The notes below the pieces were generated by a model. The model had not been told where the DNA came from, made no database searches, and saw only the letters and a program-made list of their open reading frames with translations. Positions 9,656-19,595 of a stretch of 64,000 nt of DNA are shown one piece after another (positions within the stretch are counted from its first letter, which is position 1; each line of letters opens with the position of its first letter). This stretch comes from Streptomyces sp. NBC_01275 (GTDB lineage Bacteria > Actinomycetota > Actinomycetes > Streptomycetales > Streptomycetaceae): contig NZ_JAPEOZ010000001.1 of NCBI RefSeq assembly GCF_026340655.1, positions 6,262,001 to 6,326,000 of the forward strand, written 5' to 3'. A program made the translations under genes and the position numbers.

Positions 9656-10252
9656 TTACGCGCGGGCGGCGGGGCGTCGGTTCGCGGCGGCTCGTCGACG
9701 GGCGGCCGCGAACCGGAACCCGCGGACGAGGACCGTCACACCGGCCGTCGCCGTCCCGCCGTACAGCCAGCCGGCCTGGGTGGCCAGGGCCGTGACCAGG
9801 CCCATCAGGCGGGCGGCGAAGCCGTTCCCGCTCTCGGCCAGGGGCAGCAGGCCGACGGTGAAGGCGATCGGCATGACCACGGGCGCCGACAGCTGGTCGC
9901 CCCGGCGGATCCACAGGGCGGTCAGCACGCTCAGCGGCAGGAACAGCACGCCGTACACGGTCAGCGAGCCCTCGAACAGCAGCTGGTCCAGACAGCCCAG
10001 CGCGAACATCACCGCCCCGCTGAACAGCCCGCCGCCGAGCCCGGTGAGCCGGGGGTTCGGCATCCGCCGGACGGCCCGGACAGCTCGGACGGCCCGGACA
10101 GCTCGGACGGTGGCACGGGACGCGTCACGGCTCGGGGCACGATCGCGGATCCGCTCCCGGTCCCGGCTCGCCTGGGGCGGAAGGGGCGGAAGGGGCGGTG
10201 TGTCCCGGCGTCGCGTTCCTTGGTGCGGGGGGCGCGTCCTGTGTTGCTCCAC
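9656..10252 (-). CDS. DUF6542-like integral membrane protein
   Basis: The 198-residue protein has an Arg/Pro-rich cytosolic N terminus, then about four membrane helices (GLGGGLFSGAVMFALGCL, YGVLFLPLSVLTALWI, VVMPIAFTVGLLPLA, ALATQAGWLYGGTATAGVTVLV), and a basic tail. The layout fits the Streptomyces DUF6542 family next to ychF. Function unknown. GTG 10252 is preceded by TAAGTT at 6 nt, so it is likely leaderless. An 18-bp tandem duplication gives the run (AVR)n at residues ~49-60. Convergent with ppgK. Confidence 0.72.
   Translation of the reverse strand: MEQHRTRPPHQGTRRRDTPPLPPLPPQASRDRERIRDRAPSRDASRATVRAVRAVRAVRAVRRMPNPRLTGLGGGLFSGAVMFALGCLDQLLFEGSLTVYGVLFLPLSVLTALWIRRGDQLSAPVVMPIAFTVGLLPLAESGNGFAARLMGLVTALATQAGWLYGGTATAGVTVLVRGFRFAAARRRAAANRRPAARA
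10070..10105. repeat. 18-bp tandem repeat inside the DUF6542 gene
   Basis: GACGGCCCGGACAGCTCG occurs at 10070-10087 and 10088-10105. Eighteen bases keep the frame and encode repeated Ala-Val-Arg. Confidence 0.9.
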
Positions 10253-10390: not shown

Positions 10391-11479
<1,089 letters not shown>

Positions 11480-11495
11480 CCGGGTACCTAGAGGC

Positions 11496-11525
11496 GGCCT
11501 GACCTGCGGCGATGCAGGTCAGGCC
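11496..11525. terminator. Hairpin after ychF, inside the island
   Basis: GGCCTGACCTGC (11496-11507) pairs perfectly with 11514-11525 around a 6-nt loop. It lies inside the left repeat, so it arrived with the element and now ends both ychF and the convergent STAND gene. Confidence 0.75.
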
Positions 11526-11530
11526 GTCGT

Positions 11531-11560
11531 GCTGTCCGCAGCTGTCCGCAGCAGTCCGCA
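11531..11560. repeat. Three 10-bp tandem units at the left end of the island
   Basis: GCTGTCCGCA occurs twice, then GCAGTCCGCA. A related GCCAGTCCGC pair lies near the right end. Possible recombinase arm sites. Confidence 0.75.
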
Positions 11561-11584
11561 GGACTTCAGCCCGGGGAGTCGTAC

Positions 11585-14500
11585 TCAGGCATACAGATCG
11601 GTGTCGGCTGCCAGGGTGGCGGTAGCGGCCAGTACTCGCGCAAAGCTGGCTACAGCCGGCTCGTCCAGGTGCTCCATCGCCCCACGGAGGCGCTCCTCCC
11701 AGTCGAGGCGGAACTCGTAAGCGAGTAGGTGCCCCTCTCGGTGGGTGGCCGGGTTGATGCCGAGCAGAGCGTTCAAATCGGGCGCCGGAAAGACTACGGG
11801 GGACCGGAAGATCTCGCGCTCCGCGGCGCCCGGGGCAAGCAGGCTCTGGCCGATCAGGAGGGCCGGGTCTACCAACCGCGCTGCTTCCTCGCACCAGACG
11901 GTTACGTGCCCCCGGACTTCCCCGTTCTGTGTGACCACCGGCGGAAGCCCCCAGTCCGGCAGGTCGACCGATCTACCGTCACCTCGGGTTACCCGCAACA
12001 TGGTAGGGACCAGTCGGCACTCCAGTCCCAGGAAGCGTAGGGCCGTGGTGAATGCCAGCACGAGGAAGGCAGGAGAGGGCGCTGCTTGCCCACCCAGGTG
12101 ATAAGAGGTGGCTCCCAGCAGGCTGTAAAGCGAGCGCGCATCGGGCGGAACGGCCCGGGTGAGAGCTACGGCGTTGCGCCAGGGGTATTCGTCTATCAGA
12201 TACGTTCCACTGCCTCCCGACGGTGGCAGCGGAAAGTGAGGAGGCCCCTCCAGGCTCACCGTTTCGGAAGGCTCGTCGTGCGGATCCTGTTCATGCAGCT
12301 CCAGGAACTGGCGTGCTGTGACCGCGAGCGGTACGTGGCTCTGCCCCGCAGCCTCGAACAGCTCAAGGCTCTCTCGCATCAGGGCGCGGCACAGCTCCGG
12401 GTCACTGTCTGGATGCCCCAGAAGGTGTCGGGTCCAGGCGAGCACAGCGCGTCGGTGCGTGACATGGGCCAGTACGTCCGGCCCGGCTTCGGTGTGTGCT
12501 ACGAGCAGCGCCTCAGCCTGGTCGATCAACAACCCTGCGGCTTTGAGGATCCAGGCTTCAGTGGGTAGCCCCTTCTCCTGCCTGCGGAGGCTGCCCACCG
12601 TCAGGGCATGGGCCGCGTCCACCATATGGTCCGCGTGGTGGCGCATGATGTTCACGGCTTCCCGCTCGGCGGGCTCGGGGATTCCCGCGGTGACGGCGAG
12701 GGCCTCCTCCAGCCGACCCGTGGATGCTTTGACGATGGCGTCCAGGAAGTGGAGTTCCGCGCTCGTCTCGGCGTCTGCCGGAGCCGCCGCCTTAGCCTGG
12801 TCGATGGCCATAGCCGCGTCGTCCCAGTTCTGGATCCACACGAGCGACTGCACCTGTTCCAACCGGATTCCGAAGGCTGTCGAGGGAGCCACATCCTCGC
12901 GCTGCAGAACCGCCTCGAGCCTGGCGTTGGCGCGGGCGATGTCAGCGAAGCGGTCCGTTGCCACTGCCGCGCGCATGTCGGCGACGTGGGCCAACAGCAG
13001 GTGCTCGACGCCCTCAGCGTGGAGTGAGTCCATGCCTTCCAGCAAAGTCCAGGCAGTCTGTGCCGCCTGTGCGGCCTCGTCGAACCGCGACTGATTCATC
13101 AGGCACTGGGCCAGTGTGGTCGTCGTGGCGGCTCGGCGGTAGACGGGATCGTCGATTGCCCCTTCGCCGGCGTGCTCCACGATCGTCAGTGCCTCACGTA
13201 ACAGTCCCTCGCTGCGCACCAGATCACCGTGGATGTTTGAGATCGCTCCCGCGACATTGGCCAGCAGTGCCACGGTGTTGGCGTCCGCATAGCCGCTATT
13301 GGTCACGCGATGCGCCACATGAACCGCATGCTCAATCAGGGTGGCGGCCTCGGCCCATGAGTGCTGTTTCTGGCAGTCCACCAGCCGTTTCACCAGCTCG
13401 TGCTGGAAGCGTCCTTGCATCGTATTGACGGCCTCGCCGTCCAGCATCGCGCGGATGATTTCCTGGACGATGCGGTGGATTGCGAGAAAGCCGTCTCGGG
13501 GGTCGACCAGGGAAAATCTGCGCAGCTCCGCCACAGCCCTGTAGACGGCAGATCCGGTCGGCAGGTCGAGTGTTGCGAGGTGAAGCGGAATGAAGTCTGG
13601 GGCGAGCAGGGCACAGCGGGCGAGCAGCCCCGCGGCGAGATGCTGTCCCGAGTCGTCGGACGAGTGCAGCGCCTGATCGAGCACCCTTTTTACGCTGAGG
13701 GTGACCGCCGCGGTCAGTGTCGCGCCCTCCCGGTAGTCGAGCGGCACGAAGCCGCGGTCGTCGAGCAACTGGGCGCGGCAGTTGGCGAGTTCAGTCAGAT
13801 AGACGCCGACCGGGCACTGGGTCGCCGCGATGTAGCCGATGGCCTGGGCGATGCCGAGCGGGATGCCCTCCACTGCGTTGACCAGCGCGGACACCTCGGA
13901 CTCGGAGATATCCGGCAGCCGTTCTCCAGCCCAGGCAGTGGCCTCCTCGGCCGTCATCCGTTCAACGACTAGCCCGCCGTCTGCCGCAGCCCAGGCCGAG
14001 TCGCGGGTGGTGACCAACACATGCGCACCTTCGCAGGTCGGCAGCAGACCTTGCAGCTGCTCCCGGTCCGCGACGTTGTCGTAGATGAGCAGCAGCCTGG
14101 TGCCCAGGTGCGCTAGGCGGAGGCCGACCTGAGTGAGGATCTCCACGTCGGTGGCTGGCTCGGTGTCCTGTCGCTCCTCGGTGACCATCCGCCGATATGC
14201 GGCGATGACGTCCTCCCGGGTATCGGACGGGATCCACCAAACAAAGTCGTACTGGTCTCGGTGTCGGTGGGCATACAGCCGTGCGATGCTCGATTTGCCG
14301 ATCCCACCGAGTCCGGACACCACCACCCGGGGTGTCCCTGCATCGGGCTCCCTGCTGAATCGTTCCCTGAGCGTCGTCAGCTCCCTGCTCCGGCCGCGCA
14401 CACCGGCAGCCGAAGGGACCTCACGGAAGAGCGCGCGGCCGGGCCCGGGCAGCTTGATTGCCTCGGCCCCAGGCGTGGCACGGCGTCCGCGCACGAGCCG

Positions 14501-15136
14501 CGGAAGCTCGGCCAACCGGAACGTGCGTCGGGCGAGCAGGTGGTCCCCGGACCACTGAAACATCTTCACAAACAGTGCGTCGACCGTGCTGTCGATGTCT
14601 TCCGCCGCCATGGCGACGGGGGACAGGCGCAGCAGCTCCAACCGGGCCTGGTCGAGGATCTGCTCCCAGGGCCCGATCCGAGTATCAATCTCCAGCCGTC
14701 GGAGCAACGCGTGATCGTTGACGGTCAGCCTGATCGAGGCCGGCACTTCGTCCTTGCACTCTGCCAGCCATTGGCCAGGGTCCGGCACGGCCCGAGCACG
14801 TGCCACCGCGTTCCGCAGTGCATGTCCTGATGAGTGCACGGGTGCGTCCGAGAGGAACCGCAGCACCGCCGTGCCTCCGGGATCTGCGGAGCCCCAGCGT
14901 CGAGCCAGCCTTACCAGTTCCGGACCTGACCACGAGCCCGGCTCGACGCGGGTCTTCGCCTGTGCGAGCAGCAGCGGCCGTCCCTGCGCGTCGCGTACTT
15001 CGAAGTCGATGGCCTCATCAGCGCCCTCGACCCGGAAGGTCTCGGCGTCCGGGTACTCCTCCGGAGTGCGGATGAGCTGCAGAATGGCGCACGCCGTCTG
15101 GAAACTCATGCCCCGTGCCGTATCGACTCCGCCCAT
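11585..15136 (-). CDS. STAND NTPase with nuclease-like N terminus, TPR-like repeats and C-terminal sensor-like domain
   Basis: The 1183-residue protein is built like an NLR-type immune ATPase. Residues ~8-65 resemble Cap4/DUF4297-type PD-(D/E)xK nucleases: GMSFQTACAILQL, then EGADEAIDFEV (Asp44) and LLLAQAK (Gln59, Lys61). The NB-ARC module has Walker A GLGGIGKSS (275-283), Walker B RLLLIYDNV (347-355) and VLVTTRD (373-379). Helical TPR-like repeats fill ~550-950. Near the C terminus, FTTALRFLGLECRLV followed by HVTVW (His1077) and LVDP (Asp1090) recall a transglutaminase-like core, with Ser1021 where a Cys is expected. ATG 15136 follows GGGGGAAT by 7 nt. Third codon positions look less GC-biased than the neighbours, consistent with transfer. 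Antiphage defence is inferred, not shown. Confidence 0.8.
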   Translation of the reverse strand: MGGVDTARGMSFQTACAILQLIRTPEEYPDAETFRVEGADEAIDFEVRDAQGRPLLLAQAKTRVEPGSWSGPELVRLARRWGSADPGGTAVLRFLSDAPVHSSGHALRNAVARARAVPDPGQWLAECKDEVPASIRLTVNDHALLRRLEIDTRIGPWEQILDQARLELLRLSPVAMAAEDIDSTVDALFVKMFQWSGDHLLARRTFRLAELPRLVRGRRATPGAEAIKLPGPGRALFREVPSAAGVRGRSRELTTLRERFSREPDAGTPRVVVSGLGGIGKSSIARLYAHRHRDQYDFVWWIPSDTREDVIAAYRRMVTEERQDTEPATDVEILTQVGLRLAHLGTRLLLIYDNVADREQLQGLLPTCEGAHVLVTTRDSAWAAADGGLVVERMTAEEATAWAGERLPDISESEVSALVNAVEGIPLGIAQAIGYIAATQCPVGVYLTELANCRAQLLDDRGFVPLDYREGATLTAAVTLSVKRVLDQALHSSDDSGQHLAAGLLARCALLAPDFIPLHLATLDLPTGSAVYRAVAELRRFSLVDPRDGFLAIHRIVQEIIRAMLDGEAVNTMQGRFQHELVKRLVDCQKQHSWAEAATLIEHAVHVAHRVTNSGYADANTVALLANVAGAISNIHGDLVRSEGLLREALTIVEHAGEGAIDDPVYRRAATTTTLAQCLMNQSRFDEAAQAAQTAWTLLEGMDSLHAEGVEHLLLAHVADMRAAVATDRFADIARANARLEAVLQREDVAPSTAFGIRLEQVQSLVWIQNWDDAAMAIDQAKAAAPADAETSAELHFLDAIVKASTGRLEEALAVTAGIPEPAEREAVNIMRHHADHMVDAAHALTVGSLRRQEKGLPTEAWILKAAGLLIDQAEALLVAHTEAGPDVLAHVTHRRAVLAWTRHLLGHPDSDPELCRALMRESLELFEAAGQSHVPLAVTARQFLELHEQDPHDEPSETVSLEGPPHFPLPPSGGSGTYLIDEYPWRNAVALTRAVPPDARSLYSLLGATSYHLGGQAAPSPAFLVLAFTTALRFLGLECRLVPTMLRVTRGDGRSVDLPDWGLPPVVTQNGEVRGHVTVWCEEAARLVDPALLIGQSLLAPGAAEREIFRSPVVFPAPDLNALLGINPATHREGHLLAYEFRLDWEERLRGAMEHLDEPAVASFARVLAATATLAADTDLYA

Positions 15137-15338
15137 ATGGCGATTCCCCCTTGGCCTCGGTGTCGCCCTCTAGCATGCAGGGCACCACTGACAGTCCACA
15201 TCGCAACGGTTCACAAGCTGCCACGTAGGCGTCCCCCTGGACCTGGCAGGGGGGAGCGTTGTGACCCTCTGACTAGCCCATCCACGTCGTCTTTTCGAGG
15301 TGAGCGTCTGACGCCGTGGCCTGAGGCACTGTTCTCGA
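15137..15338. other. Intergenic region upstream of the STAND gene
   Basis: The 202 bp between the DUF6000 stop and the STAND start must hold the STAND promoter. I see no clear -35/-10 pair, hairpin or repeat. Confidence 0.5.
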
Positions 15339-15971
15339 CTATGCGCGGGACCAGCCGTTGGTGAAGTCGCAGTGGAGGTCCGTCCAGCGGCGCTGCTCAG
15401 CAACGGTGTAGGCGGGGTCGTCGCGGAGGTGGACCAGGGCGTTGACCCACTGGTCCCAGAGGCCGTCGGGCTGGGTGAAGCGGTCGGCGTGGTGGGTGCC
15501 GAGGTGGGCGTCGAGGCGGAGGAGGGCACCGAGGGCTGCGGGCTGGTCGTAGCGGAGGTCGGGGCGGGGGAGGTAGCGGTCCAGGTAGGAAGCGAGGATC
15601 TCGGCGTCCGCGTGGGTGCCGAAGCGGGCCAGGGCGAAGCAGTAGCCGCCGCCAGAGAAGCAGAACTCGCTGGCCAGGAGTAGGTCGCCGATGCGTTCGC
15701 GGAACGTGGCGCGTCGGCCTACGCCGATCAGCCAGGCGGCGGTGAGGCGTGAGCGCCACTCGTAGCCGAGGAGGGCCTCCAGCTCGGCATCGGTGATCGT
15801 GGCTGCGTCGTCGATGAGGTGCCAGGCGAAGCGTTCGGCGTGTGGCCACCCGGGCCGCAGGACACGACCGCTTTTCAGGTCGCGGTAGCGCGGGTGGTCC
15901 GAGTCCTTCCTCGTCACGTAGCGCTCGATCACGTAGCCGTAGCCGATCTCCTCGGGGTGCTGGAACGGCAT
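15339..15971 (-). CDS. DUF6000 family protein
   Basis: The 210-residue protein contains the DUF6000 core as I recall it: TDAELEALLGYEWRSRLTAAWLIG, RERIGDLLLASEFCFSGGGYCFALARFG and YLDRYLPRPDLRYDQPAALGAL. It is a helical, soluble protein of unknown function, frequent in Streptomyces accessory clusters. ATG 15971 has GGAGAGGT upstream and starts 3 nt after the HEAT gene stop, so it is the last gene of a three-gene operon. A role as an immunity-type protein is inference from its company. Confidence 0.72.
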   Translation of the reverse strand: MPFQHPEEIGYGYVIERYVTRKDSDHPRYRDLKSGRVLRPGWPHAERFAWHLIDDAATITDAELEALLGYEWRSRLTAAWLIGVGRRATFRERIGDLLLASEFCFSGGGYCFALARFGTHADAEILASYLDRYLPRPDLRYDQPAALGALLRLDAHLGTHHADRFTQPDGLWDQWVNALVHLRDDPAYTVAEQRRWTDLHCDFTNGWSRA

Positions 15972-15974
15972 CGG

Positions 15975-16706
15975 TCACCTCTCCGGGTATAGGTCGGTAC
16001 GGTCGATCCAGGTGGGGGCGACGAAGATGTTGTCGCCGGCGGGGGCTTCTGAGGCTTCCAGCAGGGACCAGGTGCGGGACTCTTCGACCAGGTGCTCCCA
16101 GGGCGCAGTCCAGTCGAGTTCCCAGTCCAGGCCGGTGCCGGAGACGCCGTACGTGCGGCCCGCGTCCACCCGCCAGACCTGGGAGTAGAGGATCACCTGG
16201 GCGTGGTCGGCCAGGTCGTTGATGATCTCGGCGAAGTGAGCCGAGGGCCAGCCAGGGGTGTCGTCCGCAGCGGTGGCTCGTAGGCGCGCGGTGAGCGGCG
16301 GGACGACAGGGCTGCGTGCGCCGAGTTCGGTCAGGGCCCAGCGGATGCCGTCGGGCTCGCTCCAGTCCGGTGGCGTCGCCCGTTCCAGGCAGGCGCGATT
16401 GGCGCGGCGCAGGGGCTCGACCGCGCCGTCGATCTCCAGGCTCGCCAAGGCCATCGCCGCCCATTCCCGGACGGTCGGGTCGTCGCTGTCCAGGAGGGCG
16501 ATCAGAGCGGGGCCGCAGCGTGGGTCCGCTACCTCTTCGAAGACCTCGATGGCGGTCAGCTGACCGAAGCTGCCCAGGGCGGGTAGTCCGTCGGTGATCG
16601 TGAGGGTTGCGTCACGACCGATGTCGACCAGCTGCACGCGGGCGGCGTACGAGGCGTCGTCATCCCCGTCGAGCTGTTGGACGAGGGCCTCGATGGGGGA
16701 CGTCAT
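15975..16706 (-). CDS. HEAT-repeat protein
   Basis: The 243-residue protein has HEAT-like helical repeats in its first half (VQLVDIGRDATLTITDGLPAL; AIEVFEEVADPRCGPALIALLDSDDPTVREWAAMAL), giving a protein-binding solenoid. The second half (DHAQVILYSQVWRVDAGRTYG...WTAPWEHLVEE) is an unassigned Trp-rich domain. ATG 16706 overlaps the CPCC stop in an ATGA junction, indicating translational coupling. No enzyme motif is seen. Confidence 0.7.
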   Translation of the reverse strand: MTSPIEALVQQLDGDDDASYAARVQLVDIGRDATLTITDGLPALGSFGQLTAIEVFEEVADPRCGPALIALLDSDDPTVREWAAMALASLEIDGAVEPLRRANRACLERATPPDWSEPDGIRWALTELGARSPVVPPLTARLRATAADDTPGWPSAHFAEIINDLADHAQVILYSQVWRVDAGRTYGVSGTGLDWELDWTAPWEHLVEESRTWSLLEASEAPAGDNIFVAPTWIDRTDLYPER

Positions 16707-17092
16707 GATGCCGCCGGGTGACCGCGACGCCAGAAGGTGGGCAGCCACCAGCAGAGCACCGAGCGGTCGTCGGGCCACGGGGCTCGGTCCTCGGCTTCCC
16801 AGTCCTCGAAGGAGTCGCGCGTCAGGTCGATGGGGCGCCAGGCGGGGTCGAGCGGCTCGTCCGCGGCTGGCGGGCGGACGTACTGCCGGCCGTGTTGGTC
16901 GCAGGCCCCGAAGTCCTGGTAGTTCCGCTGCGCCTCGATCAGGGAGACCCTGTTCGCTCCGCCGTCCATGGTCGGCCAGCGGAACTGGATCCCGTCGTCC
17001 TCCCAGAAGCAGACGGGGCAGATCTCGTGGGAGCCGGGCATGTCGTCGAGCACGCGGTGCCCGCAGCAGGGACAGGGGTAGGAGTCGCTCAC
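16703..17092 (-). CDS. CPCC cysteine-rich family protein
   Basis: The 129-residue protein opens with the CPCC zinc-ribbon pattern: YPCPCCGHRVLDDMPGSHEICPVCFWEDDG. Two CxxC pairs would bind one zinc ion. NRVSLIEAQRNYQDFGAC is also typical of the family. GTG 17092 is the best start because the conserved part begins at once; no strong ribosome binding site is seen. It is the first gene of the CPCC-HEAT-DUF6000 operon. CPCC genes are common near polymorphic-toxin immunity genes, which suggests but does not prove that role. Confidence 0.78.
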   Translation of the reverse strand: MSDSYPCPCCGHRVLDDMPGSHEICPVCFWEDDGIQFRWPTMDGGANRVSLIEAQRNYQDFGACDQHGRQYVRPPAADEPLDPAWRPIDLTRDSFEDWEAEDRAPWPDDRSVLCWWLPTFWRRGHPAAS

Positions 17093-17154
17093 CTGCGCAG
17101 TCTCGTTGCAGGTCCCGCCGGTGGGCCATGGATTTCTCTGCCTCGGCGTACCCA

Positions 17155-17176
17155 GCCAGTCCGCAGCCAGTCCGCG
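17155..17176. repeat. 11-bp tandem pair near the right end of the island
   Basis: GCCAGTCCGCA and GCCAGTCCGCG are adjacent, related to the decamers at 11531-11560. A second local pair TGCCAACG occurs at 17201-17218. Confidence 0.7.
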
Positions 17177-17270
17177 GGACGCCCGTAAACGGCCGTCGGG
17201 TGCCAACGTCTGCCAACGAGGAAATCCCAGGTCAGGGTCCTGCGCGGGGCTCCGCCGCAGTCAGGCAGGT

Positions 17271-17296
17271 TGTGGTGGAGTTCCGCTTCAACGTGT
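17271..17296 (+). repeat. attR-like copy of the 26-bp ychF end
   Basis: Identical to 11452-11477 and continues to a TAG that would end the same frame. No other ychF sequence precedes it. Confidence 0.85.
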
Positions 17297-17348
17297 AGCG
17301 GGTGACATCTCACCACGTCGCTGATCTGGCAAACATGCAGGTCGGGAA

Positions 17349-17374
17349 GGGTTCGACTCTTCGGAGTCGGGCCC
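17349..17374 (+). terminator. Probable original ychF terminator, right of the island
   Basis: GGGTTCGACTC (17349-17359), a TTCG tetraloop and GAGTCGGGCCC (17364-17374) form an 11-bp stem with two G-U pairs, followed by TTGATTCTTTCT. No gene now reads into it from the left, consistent with it being the pre-insertion ychF terminator. Confidence 0.7.
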
Positions 17375-17462
17375 TTGATTCTTTCTCGTGCTGGGATGGC
17401 GCTGGGATGGCCGACCCCTCGTCGCCTGTCATCATGCCTGGTCATCCGCACCTGAGGTCGCA

Positions 17463-17497
17463 TACTAATGTCCATGTTAGTAACATCGTCGTTAGTG
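17463..17497. promoter_or_regulatory. Palindromic operator-like cluster upstream of the ATPase gene
   Basis: TACTAA (17463-17468) and TTAGTA (17477-17482) form an inverted repeat. ATGTTAGTAACAT (17474-17486) is a perfect 13-bp palindrome, and a third TTAGT follows at 17492-17496. Repeated ACTAA/TTAGT half-sites are typical of TetR-type operators; no regulator gene is adjacent. The segment is distinctly AT-rich for this genome. Confidence 0.55.
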
Positions 17498-17519
17498 TCA
17501 TGCGTGGAGGTCGGCGGAC

Positions 17520-18938
17520 ATGGTGGACTTTGTGGGCCGTCGGCAGGAGCTGGCGACGCTGGAGCGAGAGCTGCAGAAGGTGGCGGCAGGGGTTGGCGGG
17601 GAGCGGCCCGGTCGGTGTGTGATGTTGCGTGGGCGGCGCCGGGTGGGCAAGTCGCGGCTGGTCGAGCGGTTTGCGGAGCGCTCCGGAGCCCCGTTCTTGT
17701 TCTACGCGGCGACCGGTGCGTCTCCCAGGGATGATCTGGCACGGCTGGCCCGGGACGCCCAAGCGTCGACACTGCCGTCGGCGGGGCTGGTGGCCGCAGC
17801 GCGGCCGGAGAGTTGGGATGCCGCGTTCGATGTGCTCGCCGCGGCGTTGCCCGCCGACGGGGCGAGCGTGCTGGTCATCGACGAGGTGCCGTACCTGATG
17901 GACGCTGACGGCGCCTTTGAGGGGATGCTGCAACGGGCCTGGGACCGGGTGCTGGAGACCAAGCCGGTGCTGCTGGTCCTCATCGGCTCCGACCTGTCGA
18001 TGATGGAGGCCCTGAACAGCTACGGACGCCCCTTCCATCAGCGCGGCCGGGAGATGGTGCTAGGGCCGCTGAACCCCGCCGAGGTGGGGCAGATGCTCGG
18101 GTTGGAACCGGCGGAAGCCTTCGACGCCGCGCTGGTCACCGGTGGTCTGCCGCTGATCTGCGCGGAGTGGCCGCGGGGCGCAGGGCTGTGGGATTTCCTC
18201 GGCGAGGCGCTGAGCGACCCGGTCTCGGCCCTGCTGGTGTCGGCCGAGCGCTCGCTGGCTGCCGAATTCCCCCCGCAGGCTCAGGCGCGTACGGTGCTGG
18301 CGGCTATCGGCAGTGGTGAGCGGACCTTCACCAACATCGCTCGTGCGGCCGGCGGGATCGGGGCCACGCCGCTGCAGCGGGCGCTGGAGCTGCTTACGGG
18401 CAAGCGGATCGTCGCGGCGGAGCTGCCCGTATCGCTGCGTCCGTCGAAGGATCGCCGCTACCGGGTGACAGACCCCTACCTGCGGTTTTGGCTGCACCTG
18501 CTCGGCCCGTCCATGGAGGAGATCGAGCGGGGACGGGGCGATCTGACGTTGGCGCGGATCCGGGAGAACTGGACCAGCTGGCGCGGCCGAGCCGTCGAGC
18601 CCCTTGTCCGCGAGGCCCTGGCGCGGATACTGCCCGATGACAGGCTGCCCGCGGCCCCCGCAGTGGGCGGCTACTGGACCCGTACCAACGACGTCGAGAT
18701 CGACATCGTCGGGGCGGACCACGCCCCCATCGCCAAGGAGATGTTCTTCGTCGGCTCCATCAAGTGGCTGGAGCAGTCGCCCTTCGACCGGCACGACCTG
18801 GCAGCTCTCCACCGCCACCGCGCCGCCCTCACCGGCGAACCCGTTCCAGTCGTGGCGGTCTCGCGCAGCGGAGTCGACTGTCCGGGGCTCGATGCCGTCT
18901 ACGGCCCTGGCGATTTGCTGACCGCCTGGTCGCTGTGA
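17520..18938 (+). CDS. Archaeal-type ATPase with DUF234 C-terminal domain
   Basis: The 472-residue protein has an AAA/STAND-like ATPase domain: FVGRRQEL box, Walker A GRRRVGKS (38-45) and Walker B VLVIDEVPYL (117-126). A winged-helix segment follows (RYRVTDPYLRFWLHLL). The DUF234 tail has EIDIVG (393-398) and GSIKW (412-416). In relatives that last motif reads GECKW, part of a PD-(D/E)xK core, so the acidic residue is Ser here. ATG 17520 has GGAGG 9 nt upstream. Function is unknown; such genes are frequent in accessory and defence regions. Confidence 0.8.
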   Translation: MVDFVGRRQELATLERELQKVAAGVGGERPGRCVMLRGRRRVGKSRLVERFAERSGAPFLFYAATGASPRDDLARLARDAQASTLPSAGLVAAARPESWDAAFDVLAAALPADGASVLVIDEVPYLMDADGAFEGMLQRAWDRVLETKPVLLVLIGSDLSMMEALNSYGRPFHQRGREMVLGPLNPAEVGQMLGLEPAEAFDAALVTGGLPLICAEWPRGAGLWDFLGEALSDPVSALLVSAERSLAAEFPPQAQARTVLAAIGSGERTFTNIARAAGGIGATPLQRALELLTGKRIVAAELPVSLRPSKDRRYRVTDPYLRFWLHLLGPSMEEIERGRGDLTLARIRENWTSWRGRAVEPLVREALARILPDDRLPAAPAVGGYWTRTNDVEIDIVGADHAPIAKEMFFVGSIKWLEQSPFDRHDLAALHRHRAALTGEPVPVVAVSRSGVDCPGLDAVYGPGDLLTAWSL

Positions 18939-19013
18939 GTGGCGGATAACGGGCAAGACAAGGGAGTTGGGGAGCGCGATCCCGCCGCAGACGTGTCACG
19001 TGGGCGCCGGCTT

Positions 19014-19595
19014 CTAGGCGGGCCGGGGCGGGGTGAGCCCGGTGAGGTCCAGGGTGATCTCGAAGGGGACGGGGCGTTTCAGGGTGCCGCGGAAGATGCC
19101 GGCAGGGGCGTAGGCGCCGGTCGGTTCGTCCAGTTCGTAGGCGTGGACGACGGGGGCGCCGTTCTCGTCCTCGATGCACCAGTAGTGCGGGATGCCGGCC
19201 TCCGCGTACTTGCGGAGCTTGACCGCGCGATCCCGGTGCGCGGACTCGGGTGAGACGACCTCGATGACGAGCTTCACGGCCTCCGGGGCGTACCAGGTGC
19301 GGTCCGGGTCGTAGGGCAGGTCCGTGAGCAAGAGGTCCGGCTCGGGGCGGTTACGGGCATCGAGGCGGATCGTCATCTCCCGCTCGACCTCGAAGCCGGC
19401 TGGTGCCTGCGCTGTGAGCGTCGTGGTCAGGGCAGTGACGAGACGGCCGTGCCAGGACCGCTGGGGCGACATCATGAAGACGAGGGCTCCGTCGATCAGC
19501 TCGGTGTGGCGTGGTGCCTCGGGGAGGTGGTCCAGGTCCTCCGCGAACCAGCCTTCCAAGCGCGGCGGGCGCATCCAGTCGGGCAGTGCGGTCAT
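19014..19595 (-). CDS. Uma2 family (DUF820) restriction-endonuclease-fold protein
   Basis: The 193-residue protein shows the Uma2 pattern: ELIDGALVFMM, RPEPDLLL (Glu/Asp of the catalytic core), LVIEVVSPESAHRDRAVKLRKYAEAGIPHYWCIE. The E-x-V after the catalytic Asp replaces the usual E-x-K. Uma2 proteins are abundant in Streptomyces and cyanobacteria and have the PD-(D/E)xK fold, but their role is unknown. ATG 19595 is 6 nt after minus-strand TACGGT, so it is likely leaderless. It converges on the ATPase gene. Confidence 0.88.
   Translation of the reverse strand: MTALPDWMRPPRLEGWFAEDLDHLPEAPRHTELIDGALVFMMSPQRSWHGRLVTALTTTLTAQAPAGFEVEREMTIRLDARNRPEPDLLLTDLPYDPDRTWYAPEAVKLVIEVVSPESAHRDRAVKLRKYAEAGIPHYWCIEDENGAPVVHAYELDEPTGAYAPAGIFRGTLKRPVPFEITLDLTGLTPPRPA

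Follow-up and report, generated by a model that had tools for sequence, protein, structure and literature searches.

Scab-causing Streptomyces carry islands associated with a gene called aviX1; in the excerpted text of PMC10711302 the border of two of these, TR1.A and TR2, is given as TAGACGTTGAAGCGGAAC, and the same excerpts describe small aviX1 islands with conserved borders and without integration and conjugation genes, as well as tandem integration at the 3' end of the gene. TR1 is treated, in the portion of PMC8369830 that deals with it, as a cis-mobilizable element (CIME) that needs TR2. Here we describe an island at the 3' end of ychF in a 64,000-nucleotide stretch of DNA from Streptomyces sp. 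NBC_01275 (the whole stretch is called the window below); the island occupies positions 11478-17270, lies between two copies of the ychF tail, and has the same attachment core as TR1, an integrative mobilizable element (IME) or CIME, and TR2, an integrative and conjugative element (ICE). The source cited there for the dependence of TR1 on TR2 is the 2017 work of Zhang and Loria.

Read on the opposite strand, the published border TAGACGTTGAAGCGGAAC gives GTTCCGCTTCAACGTCTA, the ychF tail, and from this border sequence we infer that aviX1 is ychF (aviX12, which is also found in the literature, is a different gene from aviX1). In the loci examined, the exact 18-mer lies at the end of ychF in 28 of 32 occurrences, with L027 and L082 representing one place; in 150 genomes it is found at 16 places, and all seven that were compared by hand coincide with places of the 25-mer used below. 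Compared with this 18-mer, the left copy in the window has 2 mismatches in 18 bp and the right copy has 1. The use of ychF as an integration site appears to be known already, under the name aviX1, while under the name ychF no report of Streptomyces integration in this gene is among the literature matches listed. A preliminary description of the window had called ychF an unusual target: there is indeed an integrase-free island at ychF, but the site is apparently the known aviX1 site, for which small integrase-less islands have been reported. What we add is a sampling of the site across part of the genus, an integrase clade associated with it, a complete relative of the island, and the finding that two elements are stacked here.

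In contrast to TR1 and TR2, the cargo of the island includes no recognised virulence gene, and no conjugative element adjoins it. It is similar to CIMEs and to defective actinomycete integrative and conjugative elements (AICEs), which are likewise bounded by attachment (att) sites and lack integrase or conjugation genes; accretion and decay of Streptomyces AICEs are described in the excerpts of PMC9513070. It differs from defective AICEs in that its complete relative, L094, carries a relaxase. PAISt of S. turgidiscabies is, as described, a modular tyrosine-recombinase island in the 3' end of bacA, with integrase and recombination sites eroded in relatives; it too uses the 3' end of a protein gene, and differs in its target gene and in its 8-bp core. 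For pneumococcal phages and satellites the neighbourhood of ychF also serves as attB, but integration there is reported to be intergenic and upstream of ychF, not at its 3' end. Most tyrosine-recombinase AICEs are located in tRNA genes, according to an excerpt of PMC3218068; a hidden tRNA or tmRNA target was rejected for our island, as the window contains neither, and no Rfam family was found at 9-20 kb of the window.

The island and its complete relative

The 26-bp tail of ychF recurs as a perfect direct repeat 5,819 bp downstream, and the two copies bound four minus-strand genes, which encode NB-ARC STAND, DUF6000, HEAT-repeat and CPCC proteins (Table 1). This had been seen in the preliminary description, the interval of which begins inside ychF, as a perfect copy of the tail 5.8 kb away that bounds accessory genes. 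Extended to 29 nt, the copies are 97% identical. In the organism's own genome (10.4 Mb, 9 contigs) the 26-mer has two matches in all at up to 3 mismatches, compared with 0 for a backwards control. The ychF reading frame is preserved at the island junction, and the repeats that flank the island equal the ychF tail. Just inside the left copy lies a hairpin, with arms GGCCTGACCTGC (11496-11507) and GCAGGTCAGGCC (11514-11525), again as described previously. On its plus strand the window carries GTCCGC(A/G)G in three tandem pairs, each located at an end of the island, against a mean of 0.01 and a maximum of 1 in 200 first-order Markov sequences; on the minus strand there is a single such pair, near 32.2 kb. 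We suggest that the island is very probably an integrase-less deletion derivative of an IME that recombines into the last codons of ychF by means of a tyrosine integrase.

That there is no recombinase inside, as had been claimed, holds in every search made: Pfam finds no integrase domain in the four island proteins, a six-frame search of 11478-17270 gives no match to either of two integrase types, and none of the 11 integrase matches in the own genome falls between the two tail copies. The four proteins also contain neither a relaxase domain, by which an autonomous IME would be recognised, nor the traB or Rep domain of an AICE. What the island has, attL and attR without recombination or conjugation genes, is the structure of a CIME.

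A complete relative is found in genome G278, in locus L094 (L numbers denote loci, G numbers genomes), where 16.4 kb separate a core near 190 from a core near 16,560. Its order is left end, tyrosine integrase on the minus strand (Phage_integrase, 9.2e-24), a helix-turn-helix-like gene scoring under the Pfam cut-off, a DUF3631 gene, relaxase (1.1e-9), NUDIX (2e-20) and others, the DUF6000-HEAT-CPCC genes (DUF6000 2.4e-78, HEAT_2 1.1e-7), and a right end that includes a ychF tail of its own. The island has in common with L094 the right end, the GTCCGCAG repeats and the DUF6000-HEAT-CPCC genes; the alignment of window positions 15336-17296, which includes the CPCC region, runs on through the core with 88.9% identity. 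Seven L094 proteins, a subset of those encoded, were scanned and showed no AICE traB or rep domain. Element ends at ychF fall into two kinds, which we have labelled type 1 and type 2 for this analysis: the left end of L094 is of type 2, and the window island belongs to this group, apart from type 1. The left core of L094 already represents a second tail copy, with a type 1 stretch ahead of it.

The integrase of this group is associated with the ychF core. Of 114 matches, the best 80, in 78 loci, were split by identity into 35 relatives of the L088 integrase (68-100% identity) and 43 distant homologues (about 41-46%); L115 is the record of the integrase query itself, and L118 is the same contig as that of L094. 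With up to 2 mismatches allowed, the 14-bp core lies within 400 bp of the match end in 29/35 of the close relatives, and in 0/43 of the distant ones. The distance from match end to core is 116-117 bp in 25 of these 29 and 127-160 bp in the others, three of them from matches stopping short of the C-terminus, and in 25 of the 29 loci the core beside the integrase lies in ychF itself. As for the six close relatives without a near core, L131 ends 64 bp past the match, L127 and L144 have the end of ychF about 7.5 kb away, and L133, L140 and L143 have no core within 400 bp of the match. A version of 10.2 kb, L146 of S. actuosus, has kept both cores, at 9872 and 20111, and between them the clade integrase is broken into two reading frames; on sequence grounds, this is another case of decay at the ychF site.

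Since its right end, its repeats and three of its four genes recur in L094, whose integrase clade sits at ychF cores, we read it as a deletion derivative, and the missing integrase is best read as a loss because the complete relative has one. The parent element would insert at the last codons of ychF through tyrosine-integrase recombination; an integrase of the L088/L094 clade probably made the insertion, with the GTCCGCAG repeats as its putative arm sites. Integration would swap the tail, giving ychF a terminator-like hairpin from the element, and through this exchange ychF would therefore remain intact. The integrase-relaxase half is missing from the island, with the STAND/NB-ARC gene in its position; the integrase may have been lost after integration, perhaps via recombination between tandem elements, and the island would now be immobile unless a helper integrase arrives. 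The own genome was rejected as a source of a clade integrase, the best match there having 37% identity.

The ychF tail across the genus

A 25-mer of the ychF tail, allowing up to 3 mismatches, is found in 371 of 392 genomes of the genus (backwards control zero), and 45 genomes have at least two matches. Pairs of matches that share contig and strand and are no more than 60 kb apart occur in 30/392 genomes (own included), with spacings of 1.7 to 36 kb; opposite-strand pairs within 60 kb number 0 among the 392, and in the other 15 of the 45 multi-copy genomes the copies are on different contigs or farther apart than 60 kb. The 30 genomes are a lower bound, because the 25-mer search misses sites that share only the 14-bp core (e.g. 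G132). These pairs, along with the integrase-core association, uphold the earlier proposal that the 3' end of ychF behaves as an attachment site; that many Streptomyces elements insert there is a reading we regard as well supported.

The first copy coincides with the end of ychF in most of the loci retrieved, and the second, with the same core, is preceded by other DNA. Most paired loci are of type 1, with a conserved left end after ychF that has its own terminator-like hairpin and a GTGCTGGGAT pair, and a conserved right end before the second copy that carries the same pair. At least one arm-like motif lies within 90 bp before 26/31 second copies (drawn from 28 genomes, with those of G185 and the window excluded); the arm pattern is present in 35/199 genomes, with a single match (G002) for the backwards control. 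In L083 a type 1 tyrosine integrase is located 1.7 kb from the right end, and fragments are found in other loci. As to cargo, 17 of 36 stretches between tail copies (L033-L069) contain PIN toxin-antitoxin genes and 12 to 13 of 36 type I restriction genes, and short type 1 stretches carry mainly these two kinds or ATPase genes. Other cargo and tyrosine recombinases between duplicated ychF ends, which the preliminary description had suggested looking for, do exist, e.g. the L094 integrase, toxin-antitoxin and restriction genes. The same description held that unrelated spacing would speak against an attachment site, and such spacing is partly seen (1.7 to 36 kb); yet varied cargo between shared element ends, as in the stretches read, fits a hot spot.

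Several observations weigh against the island being a deletion derivative that arrived by site-specific integration. The island-free order is indeed seen, as predicted, in G040, where nothing but the ychF tail separates ychF from the sequence found at window positions 17272-17431 and 17461-18994, but none of the genomes with this order is a same-species strain. The left end in the window resembles integrase-bearing left ends mainly in layout, and the final ~20 bp ahead of the right copy differ from other right ends. In L200 (G162) the island's genes are collinear at 85-86%, and there is no second core beside them. Five of the 31 second copies (L035, L038, L040, L059, L060) have no arm motif, and on contig C155 of G376 (L059, L060) there are two nearby copies, neither of which is ychF. 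Between species, the similarity of the cargo does not consistently exceed that of ychF (values are given below). Finally, the second copy in L040 (G180) is still ychF-like: at 11870 of the oriented locus its core is preceded by a longer stretch of ychF in which the frame is broken.

The L040 copy, which lies near an NB-ARC gene 79% identical to that of the window, may be a partial ychF duplication, and it is this longer, decayed duplication near a similar gene that would favour ordinary segmental duplication or homologous recombination as the origin of a second tail in general. We consider this origin very improbable for the island: the repeat has an unchanged core in numerous genomes whose cargo differs, all second copies within 60 kb share the strand of the first, and arm-like repeats and integrase genes stand at a fixed distance.

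Nor was a clade integrase found beside a left end of the window type, in the stretches covered of the window, L107, L200, L030 and L082 and in the 0.7 kb covered of L146, which weighs against our reading as well and means that the island may be composite, made of two elements. Two ychF elements in tandem would then have been fused by a deletion, which joined the left end and NB-ARC gene of one to the DUF6000-HEAT-CPCC right end of the other; this would refine the reading as a deletion derivative, not exclude it, and we give it somewhat less than an even chance. In L146 and in L107 (G132; cores 2.85 kb apart with DUF6000-HEAT and right end, and no match to either integrase type) a window-type left end stands directly after a DUF6000-HEAT-CPCC right end, so that the two kinds of end do occur in tandem, and in L199 (G249) the NB-ARC gene adjoins ychF without DUF6000 genes. 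However, the same arrangement as in the window is found in L200, another species, so a composite would have to be an old event or to have spread as a unit.

Instead of a dead remnant, the island might be a non-autonomous cassette, mobilizable in cis or in trans, still able to move whenever an element with an integrase occupies the same site. Short integrase-free stretches with both ends conserved recur (e.g. L050, L057, L033, L051), mainly with toxin-antitoxin, ATPase and type I restriction genes, and the text of PMC8369830 cited above describes TR1 as a CIME in need of TR2. Third codon positions of the ATPase gene to the right of the island are 86.9% identical between window and L061, vs 79.5% for ychF. 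But the ATPase gene is about as alike as ychF, or less so, in L057 (84.8 vs 84.0) and L041 (82.9 vs 85.1); the own genome has no clade integrase, as stated above, and the neighbouring cassette is truncated and supplies none. On balance we find continued movement possible but unlikely. As regards transfer itself, third positions of the HEAT gene also lie above those of ychF in one case (L055, 83.2 vs 76.0) and below them in another (L107, 80.3 vs 84.8); the cargo identities are compatible with horizontal transfer, short of proof.

More doubtful still, we speculate that the ychF tail in Streptomyces might be a modular loading dock, at which integrase-less cassettes with defence or toxin-antitoxin genes, each equipped with a ychF tail, a terminator and arm sites of its own, would be loaded, stacked and exchanged by two integrase classes from other elements in an integron-like manner. 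The locus would tie aviX1, a docking site already known from pathogenicity islands, to a GTPase gene that is widely conserved, and it suggests that restriction, toxin-antitoxin and STAND genes make up much of what moves through this site. It also provides att pairs and an integrase for studying mobilisation in cis and in trans, and a place to mine for defence genes.

A second cassette behind the island

The features of the locus are listed in Table 1.

Table 1. Features of the ychF locus, in window coordinates
Feature	Position	Strand	Basis and remarks
ychF, host gene, its 3' end the attachment site	10391..11479	+	Pfam YchF-GTPase_C (E 1.5e-38), MMR_HSR1 (E 4.3e-22)
Left att copy, 26-bp ychF tail, encodes ...VVEFRFNV	11452..11477	+	Perfect direct repeat
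Island left end: hairpin 11496-11525, three GTCCGCAG arm-like repeats at 11534, 11544, 11554	11478..11562	+	Sequence; similar left ends in L030, L082, L107, L146, L200/L194
STAND ATPase with NB-ARC, 1183 aa, cargo	11585..15136	-	NB-ARC E 2.2e-8
DUF6000 protein, element gene	15339..15971	-	PF19463 E 1.5e-76; near right end of complete relative L094
HEAT-repeat protein, element gene	15975..16706	-	HEAT_2 E 5.6e-7; collinear DNA in L094, L107, L146, L200
Cys-rich CPCC protein (longest open reading frame; true start may be internal)	16703..17206	-	PF14206 E 2.4e-34
Island right end: GTCCGCAG at 17159, GTCCGCGG at 17170, then conserved stretch reaching core	17155..17270	+	Like sequence before core in L094, L088/89, L107, L063, L068, L136, L146, L147
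Right att copy, second ychF tail, common to island and next cassette	17271..17296	+	Perfect direct repeat
Left end of second, tandem cassette: terminator-like hairpin about 17349-17377, arm pair GTGCTGGGATGGCGCTGGGAT 17388-17408	17297..17408	+	Like sequence right after ychF in many genomes
ATPase (AAA_22 / DUF234), cargo of second cassette	17520..18938	+	Pfam
Uma2 gene between truncated cassette and chromosomal block	19014-19595		Similar DNA in L043, L038, L048, L068

Right ends in a shorter or more divergent form are found in L055, L133 and L145. The DNA behind the right copy is a type 1 left end; its single arm pair, at 17388, is the only one in the own genome. A hairpin does lie just outside the right copy, where the preliminary description had placed an orphan terminator at 17349; the proposal that this was the native downstream region of ychF was rejected, the hairpin being part of the conserved left end of another element. 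Correspondingly, the part of that description which stands is that the element brought its own ychF tail and a terminator-like hairpin, whereas the DNA it displaced is not the old region downstream of ychF but the left end of another cassette.

This second cassette, with its ATPase gene, has a counterpart directly after ychF in G040 (L057/L108), with further relatives in L041 and L061. Window positions 17461-18994 have about 92% DNA identity to the cassettes in L057, L041 and L061, in which arms and att come after the ATPase gene; in the window the homology ends at 18994-18995, ahead of the expected arms and att. The cassette adjoining the island, of a different end type, is truncated, its right end missing here, and it contains no integrase. 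Judging from the DNA, two elements are stacked at this locus, the island and then a cassette of the second end type. As the cassette homology stops at 18994-18995, the order is ychF, island, truncated cassette, Uma2 gene and chromosomal block. The block starts at about 19.6 kb, and part of it is matched in 150/150 genomes. In 26 genomes the spacing from ychF to the block ranges from 1.4 to 169 kb, with 8.1 kb here; the larger spacings may reflect rearrangements besides element insertion, and at the shortest one (1.4 kb, G095) the downstream DNA looks by eye like a decayed left end.

In PADLOC the ATPase of the second cassette matches PDC-S27 (1.5e-21) and Uma2 matches PDC-S03 (1.5e-16), PDC-prefixed models being what we take to be candidate models. 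The NB-ARC gene reaches E 0.007 at best there, and the DUF6000, HEAT and CPCC genes have no match. DNA relatives of the NB-ARC gene are present in 6/382 genomes, own included, two of them partial. The N-terminus of its protein contains, by eye, a PD-(D/E)XK nuclease-like motif (EAIDFEVRD...LLLAQAK) that is kept in the L199 homologue, with no Pfam domain covering the stretch; it is possibly a nuclease-STAND defence protein.

Two further loci bear on the tail itself. After the ychF tail in L037 (about 1126) and after the second copy in L039 (about 5593), positions being those of the oriented loci, there is an inverted repeat of tail sequence, GAACTCCACCAC ... GTGGTGGAGTTC, so placed that a terminator-like hairpin could include the coding end of ychF. 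In L037 the C-terminus of YchF reads FNN in place of FNV.

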